The notes beneath the pieces were generated by a model. That model saw only the letters and a list, made by a program, of their open reading frames with translations, searched no databases and was not told the origin of the DNA. Source: Solobacterium sp. (GTDB lineage Bacteria; Bacillota_I; Bacilli_A; Erysipelotrichales; Erysipelotrichaceae). Taken from it: 11,639 bases of DNA. Numbering within the stretch: the first letter of the stretch is position 1; each line of letters opens with the position of its first letter. Below, one piece after another: positions 1,250 through 11,639 of this stretch. The translations under genes and the position numbers were made by a program. The stretch is taken from assembly GCA_016284975.1 (NCBI GenBank), contig JAEEPV010000183.1, positions 1 through 11,639 of the forward strand. Direction: 5' to 3'.

Positions 1250-2755
<1,506 letters not shown>

Positions 2756-2802
2756 TTAGTCCTACATTGTCTTAGAAAAAATAGAGGAGATAGAAAAAAA
2801 TT

Positions 2803-3510
2803 ATGAGTCCGTATATTGCAGAATTTATTGGAACAGCGATGCTTGTTCTTCTGGGTGACGGTGTTTGCTGCAACGTCAGCCTGACAGGTTCCGGAATGAA
2901 GGGCGGCAATACCGTTCACATTCTCATTGGTTGGGGTATGGCAGTTATGGTTCCTGCGTTCACATTCGGCGCAGCTTCCGGTTCCCACTTCAACCCGGCA
3001 GTTACAATCGGCGCAGCTATGCGCGGTGGTCTCTCCTGGGGTATGGTTCCGGGTTACATCATTGCTCAGATGCTCGGTGGTTTCGTAGGTGCAGCGATCC
3101 TGATGGTTCTCTATGGCGATCAGATCAAGGCTACAGAAGACGATGACACAATCCGCGGCTGCTTCAGCACAGGTCCGGCTATTCGCAACACAAGCCTCAA
3201 CTTCCTGTCTGAGTTTGTAGCTACATTCGTTCTCGTATTCACACTCGCATCCATCCCTGCAGAAGCTGGTGCTTCCAACGTTTCCTGGGTTCTCGTCTAT
3301 GGCGTCATCGTTGCATGCGGTGCTTCCTTCGGCGGTCTCACAGGTTATGCTATGAACGCAGCAAGAGATGCTGCTCCGCGTTTCGCATATCAGCTCCTTG
3401 CTCCGAATAAGGGCAAGAAGAACCCTGACTGGGCTTACGGCTGGATTCCTGTTGTAGCTCCGATCTGCGGTGCAATCGTTGCTTCCTTACTGCACAACAT
3501 CTTATTCTAA
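2803..3510 (+). CDS. glpF: glycerol uptake facilitator (aquaglyceroporin)
   Basis: This 235-residue, strongly hydrophobic MIP-family channel should have six membrane helices and two re-entrant half helices, letting glycerol diffuse inward where GlpK traps it. The first constriction motif is normal (SGSHFNPAVTIG, Asn64-Pro65-Ala66). The second reads MNAARD (Asn185-Ala186-Ala187-Arg188), so the usual NPA is NAA; the selectivity-filter arginine (188) is retained. Trp44 matches the filter tryptophan of Escherichia coli GlpF, and Tyr182 stands where that protein has Phe200. The ATG follows AGAGGAGA with 12 nt spacing. It lies 47 nt after glpK without an intervening terminator, so the two are co-transcribed. 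A strong hairpin follows the stop. Confidence 0.95.
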   Translation: MSPYIAEFIGTAMLVLLGDGVCCNVSLTGSGMKGGNTVHILIGWGMAVMVPAFTFGAASGSHFNPAVTIGAAMRGGLSWGMVPGYIIAQMLGGFVGAAILMVLYGDQIKATEDDDTIRGCFSTGPAIRNTSLNFLSEFVATFVLVFTLASIPAEAGASNVSWVLVYGVIVACGASFGGLTGYAMNAARDAAPRFAYQLLAPNKGKKNPDWAYGWIPVVAPICGAIVASLLHNILF

Positions 3511-3554
3511 TCATTCGATTTGAATTAGAAGTTTTCTGTAATAGCACATAGGCT

Positions 3555-3612
3555 GGGGGAATCGGCACAAAGCGCATGTGCGTGACTGTGCTGATTCCTC
3601 CTTCTTCTTTCT
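3555..3612 (+). terminator. strong hairpin with U-rich tail after glpF
   Basis: Bases 3555-3569 pair with 3587-3601 over 15 bp (two G-U pairs), enclosing a smaller CGCA/TGCG hairpin. The stem is followed by the T-rich run TTCTTCTTT. It should terminate or attenuate transcription between glpKF and the oxidoreductase genes. No clear promoter is seen after it, so partial read-through is the likely source of downstream expression. Confidence 0.75.
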
Positions 3613-3688
3613 GTAGTAAATGTGTTTCTGCAGCAGGCCTGCAGACAGCATATCTGATTCACAAAACAAAAGAGGACTGATAACAAAC

Positions 3689-5143
3689 ATGTATGACGTA
3701 ATTATTATTGGCGCGGGAGTAACCGGCAGTTCGATCGCCAGACAGCTTTCGCGCTATAACGCAAGCGTCTGCGTACTGGAAAAGTGCGAAGATGTCTGCG
3801 AAGGAACGTCCAAGGCAAATTCCGCAATTGTCCATGCCGGCTTCGACGCTGCTGAGGGTTCCCTCATGGCGAAGATGAATGTCCGGGGTAATGAACTGAT
3901 GGGTCAGCTGGCGGAAGACCTTGATATTCCGTTTAAACGTAATGGCGCTATGGTCGTCTGCATCCACAAGGAAGCGATTGATGGACTGAAGACCCTGTAT
4001 GACCGTGGTATTGCCAATGGTGTTAAAGACTTAAGAATTCTGAGCCGCGAAGAAGCGCTGGAGATGGAACCGAATCTTTCCGACAATGTCGAAGGTGCGC
4101 TCTATGCTCCGACAAGCGGCATTATCTGCCCGTTTATGCTGAATATCGCCATGGCGGAGAATGCAGCAGTAAACGGTGTTGACTTCCGTTTCAATACAAA
4201 AGTTGAAGCTATTAAGAGAGACGAAGAAGGTATCTGGCATCTGCGCACCAATAACGGTGAGTATACCGCCAGATATGTCGTAAACGCTGCCGGTGTCTAC
4301 GCAGACATCATCCACAACATGGTCAGCGCAAATAAGATCAAGATTACGCCGCGCCGCGGTGATTACTGCCTGCTCGACAAGGAAGTCGGCGGACATGTAA
4401 AGCATACGATTTTCCCGCAGCCGACAAATCTCGGTAAAGGCGTTCTCGTTTCTCCGACGATCCACGGCAATCTGATTGTCGGTCCGACCGCGGTCGACCT
4501 TGAGAACAAGGAAGGCAACAATACGACTGCTGCAGGTATCGCAGATCTCATCGCGAAGGCAAACGATCACGTGAAGAATCTGCCGATGCGCAAGGTCATC
4601 ACTTCATTTGCCGGACTCCGTGCACATGAAGCAAACCATGAATTCATCATTAAGGAAGTTGAAGATGCACCGCACTTCATCGACTGTGCCGGCATCGAAT
4701 CTCCGGGCCTCACATCCTGCCCTGCCATCGGTGAGATGGTCGGCGGTATGCTGAAGGAAAAGATGAATCTCACGGAAAAGGAAAACTGGATCTCCAAGCG
4801 TAAGGGTATCCTCAATCCGCAGGAACTCTCTCTGGAAGAGCGCAATGAGCTCATCAAGAAAGAGCCGGCTTACGGACAGATCATCTGCCGCTGTGAATCC
4901 ATTTCCGAAGGCGAGATCCTCGACGCGATCCATCGTCCGCTCGGCGCACGCAGCCTGGACGGTGTCAAACGCCGCACCCGCGCAGGTATGGGAAGATGCC
5001 AGGCCGGCTTCTGCTCACCGCGTGTTATGGAAATACTGCACCGTGAACTTGGACTTCCGCTGGAAGAAGTCACGAAGAGCGGCGGCCGCAGCAACATTGT
5101 AATCGAGAGAACCAAAGGCTCGAACGGAGGCGACGAAGCATGA
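3689..5143 (+). CDS. GlpA-like FAD-dependent glycerol-3-phosphate dehydrogenase with BFD-like [2Fe-2S] domain
   Basis: This is a 484-residue flavoprotein. An FAD-binding Rossmann motif sits at the N-terminus (DVIIIGAGVTGSSIAR, GxGxxG at 8-13), followed by a DAO/GlpA-type catalytic domain. A C-terminal BFD-like domain has four cysteines, C400-x-C402 and C437-x4-C442 (ICRCES and GRCQAGFC), expected to hold a [2Fe-2S] cluster. The likely reaction is oxidation of glycerol-3-phosphate to dihydroxyacetone phosphate, passing electrons to the two proteins encoded next. I start at 3689 because AGAGGA lies 12 nt upstream and the FAD motif begins at once; an in-frame ATG at 3620 would add 23 non-conserved residues overlapping the terminator tail. 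The stop overlaps the next start by 4 nt (ATGA), showing translational coupling. The electron acceptor is not determined by sequence. Confidence 0.85.
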   Translation: MYDVIIIGAGVTGSSIARQLSRYNASVCVLEKCEDVCEGTSKANSAIVHAGFDAAEGSLMAKMNVRGNELMGQLAEDLDIPFKRNGAMVVCIHKEAIDGLKTLYDRGIANGVKDLRILSREEALEMEPNLSDNVEGALYAPTSGIICPFMLNIAMAENAAVNGVDFRFNTKVEAIKRDEEGIWHLRTNNGEYTARYVVNAAGVYADIIHNMVSANKIKITPRRGDYCLLDKEVGGHVKHTIFPQPTNLGKGVLVSPTIHGNLIVGPTAVDLENKEGNNTTAAGIADLIAKANDHVKNLPMRKVITSFAGLRAHEANHEFIIKEVEDAPHFIDCAGIESPGLTSCPAIGEMVGGMLKEKMNLTEKENWISKRKGILNPQELSLEERNELIKKEPAYGQIICRCESISEGEILDAIHRPLGARSLDGVKRRTRAGMGRCQAGFCSPRVMEILHRELGLPLEEVTKSGGRSNIVIERTKGSNGGDEA

Positions 5144-6408
5144 TTTCATACGATATTGTAATCATCGGCGGCGGACCTGCAGGTCTGGCAGCGGCGGTCT
5201 CCGCCAGAAAATCAGGAATCGAAAAGATCCTGATTCTGGAACGTGACAAAGAGCTCGGCGGTATTCTGAACCAGTGCATTCACAACGGTTTCGGACTTCA
5301 CACCTTTAAGGAAGAGCTGACCGGACCGGAGTATGCTTACCGCTTCATCGAGCAGGTACTCGAAGAAAAGATCGAATACAAGCTCAACACCATGGTTATG
5401 GACATCTCTCCTGACCGTGTTGTAACAGCCATGAGCCGGGAAGACGGCATGTATCAGATTCAGGCTGGTGCAGTCATTCTGGCGATGGGCTGCCGGGAAC
5501 GTCCGCGCGGTGCGCTCAACATTCCTGGTTACCGTCCGGCAGGCATCTTCTCTGCCGGTACTGCACAGCGTCTGGTCAATATCGAAGGCTATATGCCGGG
5601 CCGTGAAGTTGTTATTCTCGGATCCGGTGATATCGGTCTGATCATGGCCCGCCGTATGACGCTGGAAGGCGCAAAGGTCAAAGTCGTTGCGGAACTCCTG
5701 CCGTATTCCGGCGGTCTGAAGCGTAACATCGTACAGTGCCTGAACGACTTCGGCATTCCTCTGAAGCTTTCCCACACCGTAGTGGATATCGAAGGCAAGG
5801 AACACGTTACAGCGGTAACGATCGCTGAGGTTGGCAAAGACATGAAGCCGATCCCGGGAACGGAAGAACGCTATACCTGCGATACCCTTCTGTTATCCTG
5901 CGGTCTGATTCCGGAGAACGAACTGTCCAACAAGGCCGGCATTCAGATGAATCCGGTCACCAGCGGACCGATCGTCAACGAGAGTCTCGAAACGAATATT
6001 CCGGGTGTGTTTGCCTGCGGTAATGTTCTGCATGTACACGATCTGGTTGACTACGTTTCGGAAGAAGCGACCAAGGCTGGTGCCAATGCGGCGAAGTTCG
6101 TACAGAACGGTTCCAAAGATACTGCTAAGGGTCATGTCGTTGAACTCAAGGCAACGGACGGTGCACGCTACACCGTTCCATGCACGGTCGATGTCGACAA
6201 GATGGAAGACCTGCTTACCGTACGGTTCCGTGTCGGAGCAGTGTTCAAGGATTCCTTCGTCAGCGTTTACTTCGATGACGAACGGGTTCAGCATCTGAAG
6301 AAGCGGATTCTCGCACCGGGTGAAATGGAACAGGTCATCCTGCAGAAGAAGAAGCTTCAGGAAGTAAAAGATCTGAAGACCATTACGATCAAGATTGAGG
6401 CAGAGTAA
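5140..6408 (+). CDS. FAD/NAD(P)-dependent oxidoreductase, partner of the GlpA-like protein
   Basis: This 422-residue protein has two dinucleotide-binding motifs: GGGPAG (10-15) for FAD and GSGDIG (161-166) for NAD(P). It also has the late FAD-contact segment PGVFACGNVLHVHDLVD, as in pyridine-nucleotide-disulphide-oxidoreductase-fold enzymes. The redox CxxxxC pair of true disulphide reductases is absent; conserved-looking single cysteines are C46 (GGILNQCIHNGFG) and C118 (MGCRERPR). It probably links the glycerol-3-phosphate flavoprotein to NAD(P) or another carrier. Its ATG lies inside the previous stop codon (ATGA), with GGAGGCGA just upstream, and the next gene begins 2 nt after its stop. 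The three genes therefore form one translational unit. It takes the place of GlpB in the module but is not a clear GlpB orthologue. Confidence 0.85.
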   Translation: MISYDIVIIGGGPAGLAAAVSARKSGIEKILILERDKELGGILNQCIHNGFGLHTFKEELTGPEYAYRFIEQVLEEKIEYKLNTMVMDISPDRVVTAMSREDGMYQIQAGAVILAMGCRERPRGALNIPGYRPAGIFSAGTAQRLVNIEGYMPGREVVILGSGDIGLIMARRMTLEGAKVKVVAELLPYSGGLKRNIVQCLNDFGIPLKLSHTVVDIEGKEHVTAVTIAEVGKDMKPIPGTEERYTCDTLLLSCGLIPENELSNKAGIQMNPVTSGPIVNESLETNIPGVFACGNVLHVHDLVDYVSEEATKAGANAAKFVQNGSKDTAKGHVVELKATDGARYTVPCTVDVDKMEDLLTVRFRVGAVFKDSFVSVYFDDERVQHLKKRILAPGEMEQVILQKKKLQEVKDLKTITIKIEAE

Positions 6409-6410
6409 GT

Positions 6411-6770
6411 ATGGAAAAAAGAGAATTAACATGCATTGGCTGCCCGATGGGCTGCCAGATCACCGTTGAACTTGAGAATGGTGAAGTTCTTTCCGTAAAG
6501 GGCAATACCTGCCCGATCGGCGATAACTACGCGCGCAAGGAAGTCATTCATCCGGAACGCACCGTTACCTCCACTGTAGTCGTGGATGGCGGTGACAAAC
6601 CTCGCTGCTCCGTCAAGACAGCAGGCAATATTCCGAAGGACAAGATCGATGAATGCATGAAGGCGATCGATGCGGTGCGTGTCAAAGCACCGGTTAAGAT
6701 CGGCGATGTCATCATTGACAATGTACTCGGTACCGGCGTGAATGTCGTTGCGACTAGAAACGTTGACTGA
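6411..6770 (+). CDS. DUF1667 four-cysteine protein, probable Fe-S subunit of the glycerol-3-phosphate oxidising module
   Basis: This 119-residue protein begins CIGCPMGC (Cys8, Cys11, Cys15) and has a fourth cysteine at 34 (GNTCPIG), a spacing resembling the [4Fe-4S] site at the N-terminus of molybdopterin oxidoreductases. The rest, with KTAGNIPKDKIDECMKAI and VIIDNVLGTGVNVVATR, fits the DUF1667 family, which is repeatedly found beside GlpA-like and FAD/NAD oxidoreductase genes, for example in Thermotoga and clostridial glycerol operons as I recall. The role is probably electron transfer or assembly of the dehydrogenase, but its biochemistry is inferred from context. It follows the previous stop by 2 nt and ends the + strand glycerol operon at a terminator. 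Confidence 0.85.
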   Translation: MEKRELTCIGCPMGCQITVELENGEVLSVKGNTCPIGDNYARKEVIHPERTVTSTVVVDGGDKPRCSVKTAGNIPKDKIDECMKAIDAVRVKAPVKIGDVIIDNVLGTGVNVVATRNVD

Positions 6771-6781
6771 TTAAACATCTG

Positions 6782-6818
6782 AAAGAGGCCATTGCGTAAG
6801 TGCGCAGTGGTCTTTTTT
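6782..6818 (+). terminator. intrinsic terminator of the glycerol operon
   Basis: Bases 6782-6796 pair with 6803-6817 over 15 bp (three G-U) with a TAAGTG loop, ending in a run of six Ts. It is 11 nt after the DUF1667 stop codon. Confidence 0.85.
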
Positions 6819-6861
6819 AGGTGTAAAATAATTGTGTTGTGAAAATAGGAGAAATCATACT

Positions 6862-7386
6862 ATGACTACTGCTAATAAGCTGACCATTCTGAGAATCATT
6901 CTGGTACCGGTATTCCTCGGCGTACTGTATGCGGGATTCCCCAACAGCAACTACGTAGCGCTGGCGATCTTCATCATTGCCTCTCTGACCGATCTTCTGG
7001 ATGGCTATATTGCCCGGCACTACAACCAGATCACCAACTTCGGCAAATTCATGGATCCCCTCGCAGACAAGATCCTGGTCATGTCCGCGATGTGCTGGTT
7101 CGTGGAAAACGGTCAGATGCCGGGATGGGCGCTGGCAATTGTTCTTCTGAGAGAATTCGCCGTTTCCGGCATGCGCCTTGTCGCAGTGGAACAGGGCAAA
7201 GTCATCGCGGCTGCCTGGTCCGGCAAAGTCAAGACGGCTTCCACCATGGTCTGCCTCTGCCTGATGATGCTCAATATTCCGGAATGGCTGAATACGTTAT
7301 GTGTTGTGGTCATTGTGGCGACGACGGTATACTCCGGCGTTGAATACTTTATTAAGAATAAAGACGTCTTCAAAAACGCAGACTGA
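6862..7386 (+). CDS. pgsA: CDP-diacylglycerol--glycerol-3-phosphate 3-phosphatidyltransferase
   Basis: This 174-residue membrane protein condenses CDP-diacylglycerol with glycerol-3-phosphate to phosphatidylglycerol phosphate, the first committed step to phosphatidylglycerol and cardiolipin. The complete CDP-alcohol phosphatidyltransferase motif is present: Asp44, Asp47-Gly48, Ala51-Arg52, Gly61, Asp65 and Asp69. It is surrounded by hydrophobic helices typical of the family. I start at the ATG at 6862, where TAGGAGA lies 8 nt upstream and MTTANKLTILRI matches usual PgsA N-termini; an in-frame start at 6832 would add ten residues and skip this site. It is separated from the glycerol operon by a terminator, and a TAAAAT at 6824-6829 is only a weak promoter candidate. 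It shares the substrate glycerol-3-phosphate with its neighbours, which may or may not be meaningful. Confidence 0.93.
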   Translation: MTTANKLTILRIILVPVFLGVLYAGFPNSNYVALAIFIIASLTDLLDGYIARHYNQITNFGKFMDPLADKILVMSAMCWFVENGQMPGWALAIVLLREFAVSGMRLVAVEQGKVIAAAWSGKVKTASTMVCLCLMMLNIPEWLNTLCVVVIVATTVYSGVEYFIKNKDVFKNAD

Positions 7387-7397
7387 TCAAGCCAATG

Positions 7398-7428
7398 AAA
7401 AAGAACCAGATCAAACGGTTCTTTTTTT
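7398..7428 (+). terminator. intrinsic terminator of pgsA
   Basis: AAAAAGAACC (7398-7407) pairs with GGTTCTTTTT (7417-7426), with Ts continuing to 7428. It begins 12 nt after the pgsA stop and faces the dha operon terminator. Confidence 0.85.
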
Positions 7429-7441
7429 ATGCCCGGAAAAT

Positions 7442-7471
7442 AAAAAAAAAACAGAGAGCCGAAGCCCTCTG
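7442..7471 (-). terminator. intrinsic terminator of the dhaLMK operon
   Basis: On the minus strand CAGAGGGC and GCTCTCTG pair over 8 bp closing a UUCG tetraloop, followed by ten Ts (As at 7442-7451 on the + strand). It begins 19 nt after the dhaK stop. With the pgsA terminator it insulates the two convergent units. Confidence 0.85.
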
Positions 7472-7489
7472 TGTTAAAAACAAAACCAA

Positions 7490-8485
7490 TCAGAACTGTA
7501 CGAATGCAGGAGTATCTGCCGGTGCATCGAGCAGCTTCTTCATTTCATCATCCAGCTTGAGCAGTGTGATGGAGAAGCCTTCCATGTCGAGCGATGTCAT
7601 ATAGTTGCCGACGATGGTCTTGTAGATCTTGATGCCCTTTTCTGCCAGAACATCCTTAATGTGATTGTTGGCAACATAGAGTTCCATCAGCGGAGTGCCG
7701 CCCATGCCATTGACCAGGACACAGACTTCATCACCGGAATTGTAGATTCCCTCAGCGAGGATCTTGTCGAGCAGCTGATCGGAAATGCCGTTAACGGTGC
7801 TCATCTTTTCACGGTGAGTACCCGGTTCGCCATGGATACCGATACCGATTTCAATTTCATCTTCCGCAAGGTCAAAGCTCTTCTTGCCGGCTGCCGGAAC
7901 GGTGCAGGCATCAATCGCCATACCCATGGAACGTACGTTTGCGATAACCTTTTCAGCGACTGCCTTAACAGCTGCGAGATCTCCGCCGGCTTCTGCGCAG
8001 GCACCTGCGAGTTTGTGTACGAAGATGGTTCCGGCGATACCGCGGCGTCCGGTTGTCCAGGTACTGTTCTCAACTGCGACGTCGTCTGCGACAACAACCT
8101 GATCAACTTCGATGCCTTCATCTCTTGCCATGTCAGCTGCCATTTCGAAGTTCATGACATCACCGGTGTAGTTCTTGATTACGAGAAGAACACCCTTTCC
8201 GCCGTTGGCTGCTTTGATTGCTTCATAGACCTGATCCGGTGTCGGGGATGTGAATACTGCACCGGCAACTGCGCCGTCCAGCATACCTTTTCCGACGAAT
8301 CCGCCGTGGGAAGGTTCATGTCCGCTTCCGCCGCCGGATACGAGCGCAACTTTACCGTTGGAACCGCCGGCACGAACCAGTACTTCCAGTCCAGGCAGAC
8401 GCTTAACGTACTTCGGGCAAGCTGCTACCATGCCATCAAGCATTTCGTTTACTACATTGTCGACCTCATTAATCAGTTTCTTCAT
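7490..8485 (-). CDS. dhaK: dihydroxyacetone kinase, substrate-binding subunit DhaK
   Basis: This 331-residue subunit binds dihydroxyacetone covalently and, with DhaL and DhaM, converts it to dihydroxyacetone phosphate using PEP via the PTS. GGGSGHEPSHGG carries Gly53 and His56, NYTGDVMNFEMA carries Asp109, and GIGIHGEPG carries His218, the residue that forms a hemiaminal with the substrate. The numbering is identical to that of Escherichia coli DhaK. Length is close to the usual one for the PTS-type enzyme and there is no fused ATP-binding DhaL domain. AAAGGAGGG lies about 5 nt before the ATG. It is the last gene of the operon, 86 nt after dhaM; that gap holds two dyads. The long reading frame on the opposite strand is a composition shadow. 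Confidence 0.96.
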   Translation of the reverse strand: MKKLINEVDNVVNEMLDGMVAACPKYVKRLPGLEVLVRAGGSNGKVALVSGGGSGHEPSHGGFVGKGMLDGAVAGAVFTSPTPDQVYEAIKAANGGKGVLLVIKNYTGDVMNFEMAADMARDEGIEVDQVVVADDVAVENSTWTTGRRGIAGTIFVHKLAGACAEAGGDLAAVKAVAEKVIANVRSMGMAIDACTVPAAGKKSFDLAEDEIEIGIGIHGEPGTHREKMSTVNGISDQLLDKILAEGIYNSGDEVCVLVNGMGGTPLMELYVANNHIKDVLAEKGIKIYKTIVGNYMTSLDMEGFSITLLKLDDEMKKLLDAPADTPAFVQF

Positions 8486-8518
8486 ATTACCCTCCTTTTT
8501 GTATTATCCATGAAGAAC

Positions 8519-8558
8519 TCTGGCGCCAGAATGCGCCGAACCGCAGGTCATTGCGGTT
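8519..8558 (-). repeat. two dyads in the dhaM-dhaK gap
   Basis: The gap holds a perfect 12-nt palindrome, TCTGGCGCCAGA (8519-8530), and a stem AACCGCA (8539-8545)/TGCGGTT (8552-8558) with a 6-nt loop. Neither has a U-tail, so RNA processing, mRNA stability or a binding site is likelier than termination. Confidence 0.4.
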
Positions 8559-8571
8559 TATTCCAAAATGA

Positions 8572-8964
8572 TTACTGAATCTTGCGGAAGTCCCGTGTCT
8601 TCTCGGATTCTTCAATAACGCGGTTGAGATCTGAACCGATGGAAGCTTCAACGGCTGCGACAATGACACCTTCTACGATGGGGGCGTCAGCGATCCTGAC
8701 ATTGATGCCTTCCCCGTCCAGCATGTCGATTGCCATTTCCGCACTGATGATTCCGCTTCCGAGATCACCAAATACAACAACACCATCGCCCTTGTCGGCG
8801 TCACGGATCGCGTCCATGATTCTTACCGCATCGGTACCGATACTGCCGTCTTCCATTCCGCCGGCACAGAAGATGCCGTCATAGCCATGCGCCATCTGAA
8901 GTGCGAGCTCTTTGATGCCTTCGGCAATTTTAGCGCTGTGGGATACGATAACAATTCCTACCAT
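8572..8964 (-). CDS. dhaM: dihydroxyacetone kinase phosphoryl-donor subunit DhaM (EIIA-type, single domain)
   Basis: This 130-residue protein is an EIIA-Man-like domain. MVGIVIVSHSAKIAEGIKEL places the phosphorylatable His at position 9, and VVVFGDLGSGIISAEMAIDM matches the conserved Asp-Leu-Gly-Ser segment. It takes phosphate from phospho-HPr and passes it to ADP bound on DhaL. Enterobacterial DhaM is fused to HPr- and EI-like domains; here only the EIIA domain is present, so the general EI and HPr proteins of the cell must act. It begins 16 nt after the dhaL stop and has only a weak ribosome site (GAGAG/CGGA), so coupling to dhaL translation is likely. Confidence 0.93.
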   Translation of the reverse strand: MVGIVIVSHSAKIAEGIKELALQMAHGYDGIFCAGGMEDGSIGTDAVRIMDAIRDADKGDGVVVFGDLGSGIISAEMAIDMLDGEGINVRIADAPIVEGVIVAAVEASIGSDLNRVIEESEKTRDFRKIQ

Positions 8965-8980
8965 AGCAGTCCGCTCTCAA

Positions 8981-9601
8981 TCAGCCTTTGAGGAATTTCA
9001 AAATGGTTTCCAGTGTCAGCGTAGCGGAGGTAGCACCTGGATCCTGATGTCCGATACTGCGCTCTGCCAGATAGCTTGCACGGCCTTTGGTCGCACGGAT
9101 CGTCTTTGTGAATTCGATGCCCTTGCGTGCTTCTTCACAGGCCGCTTCCAGTGCGGTAACAAGATCTGCACCGCCGGCAACTTTTTCGGTGTAAGTTTCA
9201 TATGCCGGAATCAGGGAATCCAGCATCGTCTTTTCGCCGCGCTCTGCTTTACCGCGTTTCTGAATACCTGCGATGGCCGCCTTCAGCATTTCACCGAAAT
9301 CCTCTGCGGTGAGCTCAGTCTTTCCGGCTGCGACTTTTCCGGCATCCATATAAGCGGTGCCATACAGCGGTCCGGAAGCTCCGCCGACGGTTGACAGCAG
9401 TGTCATTCCGGTTTTCTTCAGCGCTGCGCCGATATCCGGATCATCCTTCGGCAGTTTCTCCTTAACCGCATGAAAACCTCTGGCCATGTTGACTCCATGG
9501 TCAGCGTCACCGATCTCGCGGTCGAGGTCTGTGAGGAAATCCTTGTTTTCCTCAATAACATCGGCGATTGCGGCAATACAATCATAAATTCTGCTAGACA
9601 T
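8981..9601 (-). CDS. dhaL: dihydroxyacetone kinase ADP-binding subunit DhaL
   Basis: This 206-residue helical subunit carries a tightly bound ADP that is rephosphorylated by DhaM and phosphorylates the substrate held on DhaK. LDREIGDADHG supplies the Mg-binding aspartates 27, 32 and 34 of the D-x4-D-x-D pattern. GGASGPLYGTAY and RASYLAERSIGHQDPGATSA match the nucleotide-binding and C-terminal family segments. AGGAGG lies 8 nt before the ATG. It is the first gene of the operon, so the order is dhaL-dhaM-dhaK rather than the more familiar K-L-M. A 380-nt upstream region separates it from the next gene on the same strand. Confidence 0.95.
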   Translation of the reverse strand: MSSRIYDCIAAIADVIEENKDFLTDLDREIGDADHGVNMARGFHAVKEKLPKDDPDIGAALKKTGMTLLSTVGGASGPLYGTAYMDAGKVAAGKTELTAEDFGEMLKAAIAGIQKRGKAERGEKTMLDSLIPAYETYTEKVAGGADLVTALEAACEEARKGIEFTKTIRATKGRASYLAERSIGHQDPGATSATLTLETILKFLKG

Positions 9602-10373: not shown

Positions 10374-11300
10374 TCAATACGCTGCCGGAAGCCGATAGCC
10401 GCTGTCGGTTTTCGCCATGGTAAGACGTTTGATATCCGGCTGGATCTCTCCGAGCGAATCCGCAAGTATATCCAGATAGATGATCCCGTCGCGTTCCTGT
10501 GCAGCGATGATGTAGCGCGGATTATAAACGGAAGAGGTTTCCTGTGCAATCATATCACTTCTGGCGCAGTATACGTTTCCATTTGCTTCCTTGAACATGG
10601 CGCTTTCGCTGTAGAAGGCGCTGTAGTAAAAATTCTCTTCCAGGAAATCACGGGTAAACACCCGTTCCGCAATGGCCCGGATATCTTCGAGCGAATGCGG
10701 TGTAACGCCGCCCATCGACAGCACCTCATAATATCCGGGGAAGGATTCGGTTTCGCTGAGGGACAGGTTCAGACCATACAGCCAGTTCAGCACCCGTTTC
10801 TCCTGTTCCAGTAATGAGGTCATCGTCGTACGGTACTCTGTGAACCGGCTGTCGTCCACCGTGACCTGTTCCGGATCGATCTGAAACAGGATCCGGCCAT
10901 TGAGCCAGAAGGAATTGCCGGTCGGTTCATAGATGATGAATATAACTTTATATTTATCATCAACCATATAACTTCCCGCATAGCTGCTGTTGGAATTCTC
11001 AATATACGCTTCTTCTTTTTTGAGATCGGAAAGTGATTTGATCTCCGGCAGAGACGTTACTTCCAGCGGCAGCGGATGGAGCTGGGTATTCAGATATTTT
11101 TCTACCTCCGGAATCCGGTTCGTGTTGTAATCCTGAATACAGCCCTGAATCATGGACAGTTCTTTTTCTTCATCCGTCCGGGTATCGGTTTCCGTGACCG
11201 GACCCGCCTCATAGGGGTTTACATCCTTGTCTTTATTTTTATTGCCGCAGCCACACAGGATGAGTAAAACACCGAGTGCGGCAAGTACTGTTTTCTTCAC
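10374..11300 (-). CDS. lipoprotein of unknown function
   Basis: The protein (308 residues from the chosen start) has a lysine-led hydrophobic signal, KKTVLAALGVLLILCGCGN, with an L-C-G-C lipobox. Lipidation is expected at that last Cys, followed by a charged linker rich in Lys, Asp, Glu and Thr. It should be anchored on the outer face of the membrane. The mature part has no repeats or catalytic motifs that I recognise; SLEDIRAIAERVFTRDFLEE lies about two thirds along. I choose the GTG at 11300 because AGGTGA lies 5 nt upstream; a GTG at 11309 lies inside that Shine-Dalgarno sequence, and a TTG at 11303 is also possible. It is the only gene on its transcript as far as visible and is divergent from the T-box leader, sharing its -35 region. 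Confidence 0.8.
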   Translation of the reverse strand: MKKTVLAALGVLLILCGCGNKNKDKDVNPYEAGPVTETDTRTDEEKELSMIQGCIQDYNTNRIPEVEKYLNTQLHPLPLEVTSLPEIKSLSDLKKEEAYIENSNSSYAGSYMVDDKYKVIFIIYEPTGNSFWLNGRILFQIDPEQVTVDDSRFTEYRTTMTSLLEQEKRVLNWLYGLNLSLSETESFPGYYEVLSMGGVTPHSLEDIRAIAERVFTRDFLEENFYYSAFYSESAMFKEANGNVYCARSDMIAQETSSVYNPRYIIAAQERDGIIYLDILADSLGEIQPDIKRLTMAKTDSGYRLPAAY

Positions 11301-11323
11301 CAAAGTCACCTGCTTTCGACCTC

Positions 11324-11375: not shown

Positions 11376-11531
11376 GAACTCTAGAAACGCAGATGGGGAC
11401 AAGTAGTTTAATGGGTGCTCCGAGAAAGACAGTGGCTGATGGAAACTGTTGCGCCCGGAAATGAAATCCACCCCGGAGTGAAGTTAATCCCTTCCGGCAC
11501 CGCCCGTTATCCGGATAATGAGAGGTTGAAT

Positions 11532-11547
11532 TGTTTCACGTGAAACA
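11532..11547. other. parS: parS centromere site (ParB/Spo0J binding)
   Basis: TGTTTCACGTGAAACA is an exact copy of the Bacillus-type parS consensus bound by ParB/Spo0J, and it lies inside a 22-nt perfect palindrome (11529-11550). parS sites cluster near the replication origin. In RNA the same sequence forms the hairpin just before the T-box antiterminator. Confidence 0.85.
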
Positions 11548-11577
11548 ATTTGGCAAGCAGGGTGGCACCGCGATCAC

Positions 11578-11606
11578 ACATCGTCCCGCAAGGAGGATGT
11601 TTTTTT
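11578..11606 (+). terminator. T-box regulated terminator
   Basis: ACATC (11578-11582) pairs with GATGT (11596-11600) and TCC (11584-11586) with GGA (11592-11594), with one G-G mismatch, followed by seven Ts (11600-11606). Its 5' arm overlaps the antiterminator strand at 11582-11587, as required for a T-box switch. Confidence 0.85.
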
Positions 11607-11626: not shown

Positions 11627-11639
11627 ATGATTGACATTA
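11627..11639 (+). CDS. serS: probable seryl-tRNA synthetase, 3' partial (first four codons)
   Basis: Only Met-Ile-Asp-Ile and one further base are in the window. CGGAGGA lies 6 nt before the ATG and the T-box terminator is just upstream, so this is the regulated gene. Seryl-tRNA synthetases commonly begin M-(L/I)-D-(I/L), and the UCC specifier agrees. The identity rests on these two clues and on no domain sequence. Confidence 0.6.

Follow-up and report, generated by a model that had tools for sequence, protein, structure and literature searches.

A parS palindrome that probably also serves as Stem III of the serS T-box leader in Solobacterium sp.

A single 16-bp palindrome in front of serS in a draft genome of Solobacterium sp. 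very probably stands under two constraints at once, as a parS site in DNA and as Stem III of a T-box riboswitch in RNA. The exact 16-mer TGTTTCACGTGAAACA, the established target of ParB/Spo0J and identical to the parS of Bacillus subtilis, occupies positions 11532-11547 (palindromic, hence assigned to neither strand) of the 11,639-nt stretch of DNA analyzed here, hereafter the window. Its position, its persistence in relatives, covariation of its flanks, a near-invariant core, and, in some genomes, copies that carry related variants can all be read from the sequences themselves. A sequence-only reading of the window had first proposed this double use; the proposal is well supported by position, flank motif, covariation, low parS copy number, the presence of parA and parB, and proximity to dnaA in a complete relative, but it does not extend to the whole family, part of which keeps the T-box motif without parS.

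The T-box leader and the first serS codons occupy the last 260 bases of the window. Using cmscan, we aligned the T-box model RF00230 at full length (model positions 1-219 of 219) to 11381-11591 on the forward strand, with 91.7 bits and an E-value of 6.2e-21. This score lies 1.3 bits below the RF00230 gathering score of 93; a default Rfam scan at the gathering threshold returned no match in the window, and the T-box appeared in the search by E-value. The leader of a close relative (L104) scored 96.8 bits, and the T-box was above gathering in 17 of 20 other loci tried, with L203, L229, and L147 below. Taking the triplet that precedes A-CC to be the T-box specifier, and judging its place from the Rfam alignment, the probable specifier is UCC (serine) at 11467-11469 (+). 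Sequence and Rfam alignment place the T-box sequence GGGTGGCACCGCG, the antiterminator bulge region, at 11560-11572 (+), and a consensus scan finds the terminator-like hairpin and T run at 11582-11606 (+). The serS start itself (MIDI..., 11627-11639, +), recognized from sequence and comparison with relatives, is cut by the contig end; the remainder of the gene is found where contig C182 of this draft genome ends, and from comparison with relatives we infer that contigs C242 and C182 adjoin. A SerRS of a close relative (P0001, TIGR00414 serS) is 98% identical to the C182 stretch, and the gene, split over two contigs in the source genome, is intact in relatives. Elsewhere in the window, genes at 1259-9601 with FGGY kinase, MIP channel, pyridine-nucleotide oxidoreductase, Dak1, EIIA-man, and Dak2 domains suggest use of glycerol and dihydroxyacetone, and upstream of serS lies a 311-aa frame (10374-11309, -) that looks lipoprotein-like by eye and had no Pfam match at E 0.001.

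The palindrome around the parS core is perfect over 22 nt (11529-11550); with the addition of three G-U pairs and one G-C pair it becomes a hairpin of 13 bp with the loop ACGU at 11525-11554 (+). This hairpin is present in the predicted minimum-energy fold of the whole leader, whose stability is ordinary (z -0.55), and in that of the leader's 91-nt 3' part (z -2.2). According to the Rfam alignment, the palindrome falls in the helix preceding the antiterminator, the place of Stem III. The sequence-only reading was thus accurate in its structural description, which had an exact parS inside a 22-nt perfect palindrome, extended by G-U and G-C pairs to 11525-11554, directly before the T-box antiterminator. 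According to a review (PMC7583486), the aminoacylation sensor cannot do without Stem III, which varies in both stem and loop and has 5'-RRRxG on one side and AA-3' on the other. In the window, GAGAG at 11520-11524 (+) fits the RRRxG purine motif and AA follows at 11555-11556 (+), so that the order GAGAG, stem, AA passes the RRRxG-Stem III-AA discriminator rule on both sides. Because Stem III can vary in sequence provided that it pairs, a perfect palindrome could take its place. A chance match to parS was considered and rejected, both on frequency and on conservation in relatives: even with up to three mismatches allowed, the 16-mer is the sole match in the window (shuffled sequences gave a mean of 0.05 such matches), and by arithmetic an exact parS is expected about 3e-6 times per 11.6 kb.

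To follow the overlap among relatives, we drew on the SerRS genes found in 223 of the 272 genomes of the family with an E-value no higher than 1e-100, which is too strict for divergent SerRS such as that of genus g56. The resulting sample of 120 loci in 48 of 59 genera is non-random, comprising the 30 best SerRS matches, all from the window's genus; 60 loci from further down the match list, which skip members of the window's genus already sampled with parS and include two without an exact link; and 30 loci that include all 13 genomes of g23, a genus picked for its one known case of overlap. Three loci lacked upstream sequence, seven lacked a T-box motif, and 110 carried one. At the Stem III place of these 110 leaders, parS was exact in 54, altered by one mismatch in nine and by two in five, and missing in 42. 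One of the two-mismatch leaders, L187, holds a partial parS-like stem with two end mismatches; it was kept as such in this tally and in the analysis of flank pairing, moved to the class without parS in the tree and the genus tally, and left out of the flank-motif test. In the 67 leaders then counted as having parS, its end lies 9-16 nt before GGTGG.

Within some genera the parS stem is kept throughout. All 30 sampled leaders of the window's genus have it (25 exact, five with one change), and by hand count the 59 genomes of this genus with a SerRS match comprise 53 with an exact linked parS, five with one change, and one whose leader is cut off. Likewise, it occurs in 13 of 13 leaders of g23 (eight exact, one with one change, four with two). 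The sequence-only reading had named relatives with an unrelated hairpin and parS only elsewhere as evidence against its proposal. Such relatives make up part of the family (27 sampled genera with the T-box motif and no parS in Stem III, against 16 with parS there and five with no motif), whereas the window's genus and g23 keep the parS stem. Leaders without parS mostly have another hairpin at this place, as judged by eye (for example, L149, L150, L161, and L176), and their genomes often have a parS right after serS. In one locus where no T-box motif was found (L194, genome G218), an exact parS lies about 99 bases before serS. Because 43 of the 110 sampled leaders (L187 counted as lacking) and 27 genera against 16 are without parS in Stem III, the overlap is dispensable at the scale of the family, a limit on its spread that leaves it standing where it is conserved.

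If the palindrome also acts as RNA, selection should be visible in the flanks outside the 16-mer, where pairing is needed for Stem III and not for parS. Over the first six flank pairs, the 54 exact leader sites average 4.44 standard pairs versus 3.22 (sd 0.13) in shuffled controls, a level reached by 0 of 2000 shuffles, although here and in the comparisons below the shuffles ignore kinship among the sequences and the sample is non-random, so that none of these figures is an exact probability. In 35 of these genomes a sister parS follows serS; there the mean was 3.23 of 6 versus 2.95, reached by 133 of 2000 shuffles. In 31 genomes that have no exact site in the leader, downstream parS sites gave 3.61 versus 2.80 (0 of 2000), and some of these are terminator-like. 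Across 56 distinct leaders, four flank pairs and six core pairs were paired in 93.6% of cells versus 83.7% after shuffling, 59 cells versus 24 were changed on both sides, and the covariation score was 0.277 versus 0.106. The flank motifs separate the two kinds of site as well: 37 of 67 leaders carry both RRRxG and AA directly next to the stem, a combination seen at 0 of 68 downstream control sites. A fit on one side alone occurs in 11 leaders and 28 downstream sites, and on neither side in 19 and 40, the strict rule thus failing on one or both sides in 30 of the 67 leaders. Separately, in seven genomes (L152, L154, L166, L170, L173, L182, and L202) a palindrome of 24-30 bp surrounds the parS after serS and, with the T-rich run behind it, looks like the serS terminator, so parS may there be reused in a second kind of RNA hairpin.

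These comparisons bear on the simplest alternative, that a parS near the origin and beside serS merely happens to fall in the leader, the hairpin being a by-product of the palindrome with no selection on the RNA. That parS often lies just after serS too, also where the leader has none, and that the single-contig relative G019 has serS close to dnaA, are what such an accident of location would lead one to expect. We nonetheless regard it as very improbable, because leader and sister sites differ in flank pairing and motifs: flank pairs covary at the leader site, while the sister site in the same set of genomes shows no clear covariation, and RRRxG and AA abut the stem. The different hairpin that mostly stands at this place, by eye, in relatives without parS also counts against an accident of location.

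Constraint on the DNA is suggested by the number, the placement, and the variants of parS copies. An exact parS is present in 222 of the 272 family genomes, mostly in one to three copies, with four copies in a single genome, and a reversed control pattern was found in none of the 272. The source draft genome holds two further exact copies besides the one in the leader, three altogether, and its sole other match at up to two mismatches has two. Those two further copies (L001:1501-1516 and L002:1501-1516) lie at or just before the starts of DUF218-domain genes, and in L002 an open frame runs through parS (MFHVKH). By hand count, 19 of the 100 T-box-positive genomes, many of them drafts, yielded no exact parS other than the leader copy. 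No sampled leader of g1 or g23 goes beyond two mismatches, and core pairs changed on both sides occur in none of the 30 g1 leaders and, at one pair, in four of the 13 g23 leaders; outside these two genera, invariance of the core is partly built in by the choice of sites with at most two mismatches. Among the nine one-mismatch leader sites, the change lies in the four-base loop in six, three of which share one change within a single genus; in one it leaves a G-U pair, and in two (L145 and L146) a stem pair is broken.

In some genomes several copies vary. Four members of g23 (G147, G151, G152, and G158) carry TGTTCCACGTGGAACA in the leader and TGTTTCACGTGGAACA or its complement as the second copy, and hold no parS of the common form. 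G159 has the same one-base variant in three of its four copies; G148 and G153 have a change in the second copy only, which the leader copy is without. If one DNA-binding protein acts on every copy, related variants are to be expected in the T-box and beyond it; G148 and G153 speak against such sharing. The related variants weigh against the idea that the 16-mer is a conserved T-box stem only, perhaps with a protein or RNA contact, and no working parS. In favor of that idea, every linked site with a downstream gene examined is a serS leader. We consider it extremely improbable, because copies outside the T-box exist, including the same 16-mer after serS, and carry such related variants; moreover, the 16-mer is the established ParB target, parA- and parB-type genes are present, and many relatives have another Stem III sequence. 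As a separate observation, six loci with divergent SerRS (L227, L228, and L242-L245; 32-35% identity) have an extra parS-like site inside serS, 317 bases from its start, beside the leader site.

The genes expected of a ParABS system are at hand. The sequence-only reading had counted a lack of parB against itself; contig C361 of the source genome carries two ParB-family genes side by side with a gene for a ParA-type ATPase (261 aa, below the cut-offs of the models it matched) that lies between them. Both ParB-family proteins (266 and 301 aa) are over the parB_part cut-off, with the Noc model as best match, below the Noc cut-off. In G019, the gene order is dnaA, dnaN, recF, gyrB, gyrA, the T-box with parS, serS, parS, tadA, and dnaX, interspersed with a few small frames, and the leader parS lies about 10.7 kb from the dnaA start. 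NCBIfam cut-offs are passed by DnaA, DnaN, and DnaX and missed by TadA; recF, gyrB, and gyrA were named by eye. G027 and G147 have a similar order by eye. In the window's genus, among the matches listed, two parS copies are mostly about 1.4 kb apart. G019 also holds two frames that share VAIDCHKNTYAAICGHGKPSAS between dnaN and serS, one of them just before the leader (L224 2870-3289 and 10102-10605); perhaps, as a guess, these are pieces of a mobile element.

To gauge how far the overlap extends, we searched 84,980 species, each represented by a single genome, with a strict pattern, parS with two free positions followed 2-32 nt on by GGGTGGNACCGCG. It returned 52 stretches, all titled Erysipelotrichaceae, Erysipelotrichia, Solobacterium, Bulleidia, Erysipelothrix, or Lactimicrobium; the exact 16-mer was present in all 52, and serS lay downstream in 51 by tblastn, the remaining one (L019) being cut off yet beginning like serS. 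The strict motif GGGTGGNACCGCG recovers only two genera, and because many family members carry GGTGGCAACACG or GGTGGCACCACG we adopted a looser T-box motif, with which parS stands just before the motif in 100 of the 272 genomes of the GTDB family and 19 of its 59 genera. This count includes G131, which we rejected as a case of Stem III given its longer spacing, different leader layout, and leader (L229) below the T-box gathering score. With two parS positions degenerate, 106 of 315 genomes matched across the order, including two of 43 from a second family. In an even draw across the class, 25 of 395 matched, ten of them outside the order; a draw labeled as the phylum gave 8 of 149, and all genomes listed for it lie within the class. 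A SerRS homologue was downstream in all 15 cases checked (the ten outside the order, the two of the second family, and three more), and serS is the downstream gene at every linked site examined.

This scatter raises the question of whether the overlap arose several times, since a palindrome is easily accommodated in Stem III and the T-box gene lies near the origin; we give this about an even chance. In a quick tree of 102 SerRS rows (the window's genus thinned to 14 of its 30 leaders), the state of the overlap changes at least seven times, and the ten linked cases outside the order have SerRS only 32-36% identical to the window's type, both of which speak for repeated origin. Well-supported branches, however, force only two changes, and one old gain with many losses fits too.

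Under the dual-use interpretation we prefer, the palindrome would be, as DNA, one of few chromosomal parS sites, beside serS and near dnaA in complete relatives, and an expected loading place for ParB; in RNA form, its letters together with a few flanking pairs would make up Stem III of the tRNA-aminoacylation sensor (the discriminator) of the serS T-box. Every serS leader transcript would thus fold the parS letters into Stem III, and ParB would load there as at any parS, the RNA keeping the pairing and ParB keeping the letters. We infer both that ParB binds the leader parS and that the T-box functions with a parS stem.

A regulatory link, which the sequence-only reading had also raised, is compatible with this interpretation. 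ParB on the leader parS could hinder RNA polymerase and lower serS expression, or leader transcription could unload ParB, linking serine starvation and segregation; we judge such coupling rather unlikely. Since parS sits between the T-box start and the gene, polymerase must cross it, and ParB of Pseudomonas aeruginosa represses genes beside the intergenic sites parS3 and parS4, whereas genes by the intragenic parS1 and parS2 are not major targets at native ParB levels (PMC5521831). The many relatives without the overlap also count against coupling, and bypass of roadblocks by Bacillus subtilis ParB in vitro (PMC9242446) might soften any clash between ParB and transcription at the leader. A specific form of the link, in our view unlikely, would have ParB loading and T-box transcription compete for the same DNA: uncharged tRNA(Ser), in switching serS on, would alter how ParB loads near the origin, or serS would be tuned by ParB dosage just after the origin has been duplicated.

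Both parS sites and T-boxes are well known; the literature we searched, open-licence PMC articles, yielded no description of a parS within a T-box, and the portion of PMC4634966 at hand names neither serS nor a T-box. One short sequence, kept across a genus, is seemingly selected both as a protein-loading site in DNA and as a riboswitch helix, which makes the sharing of letters between DNA-level and RNA-level constraint testable. A centromere-like site within the transcribed regulatory RNA of a housekeeping gene is also a natural setting for ParB loading versus transcription, and relatives with and without the overlap allow a clean comparison. Among known systems, the P. aeruginosa parS3 and parS4 sites resemble the one described here in placing parS in the regulatory region of a gene; they differ in lying in a promoter region with no riboswitch (PMC5521831). 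As a T-box, the leader is of the RF00230 type in its full-length covariance match, T-box sequence, terminator-like hairpin, and downstream serS, and departs from the usual form in that its Stem III is a parS palindrome. As a chromosomal parS of the ParABS (Spo0J/Soj) type, the site is typical in its exact 16-mer, few copies, accompanying parA- and parB-type genes, and proximity to dnaA in a complete relative, and unusual in sitting within a structured regulatory RNA, where it is extended by pairs outside the core.
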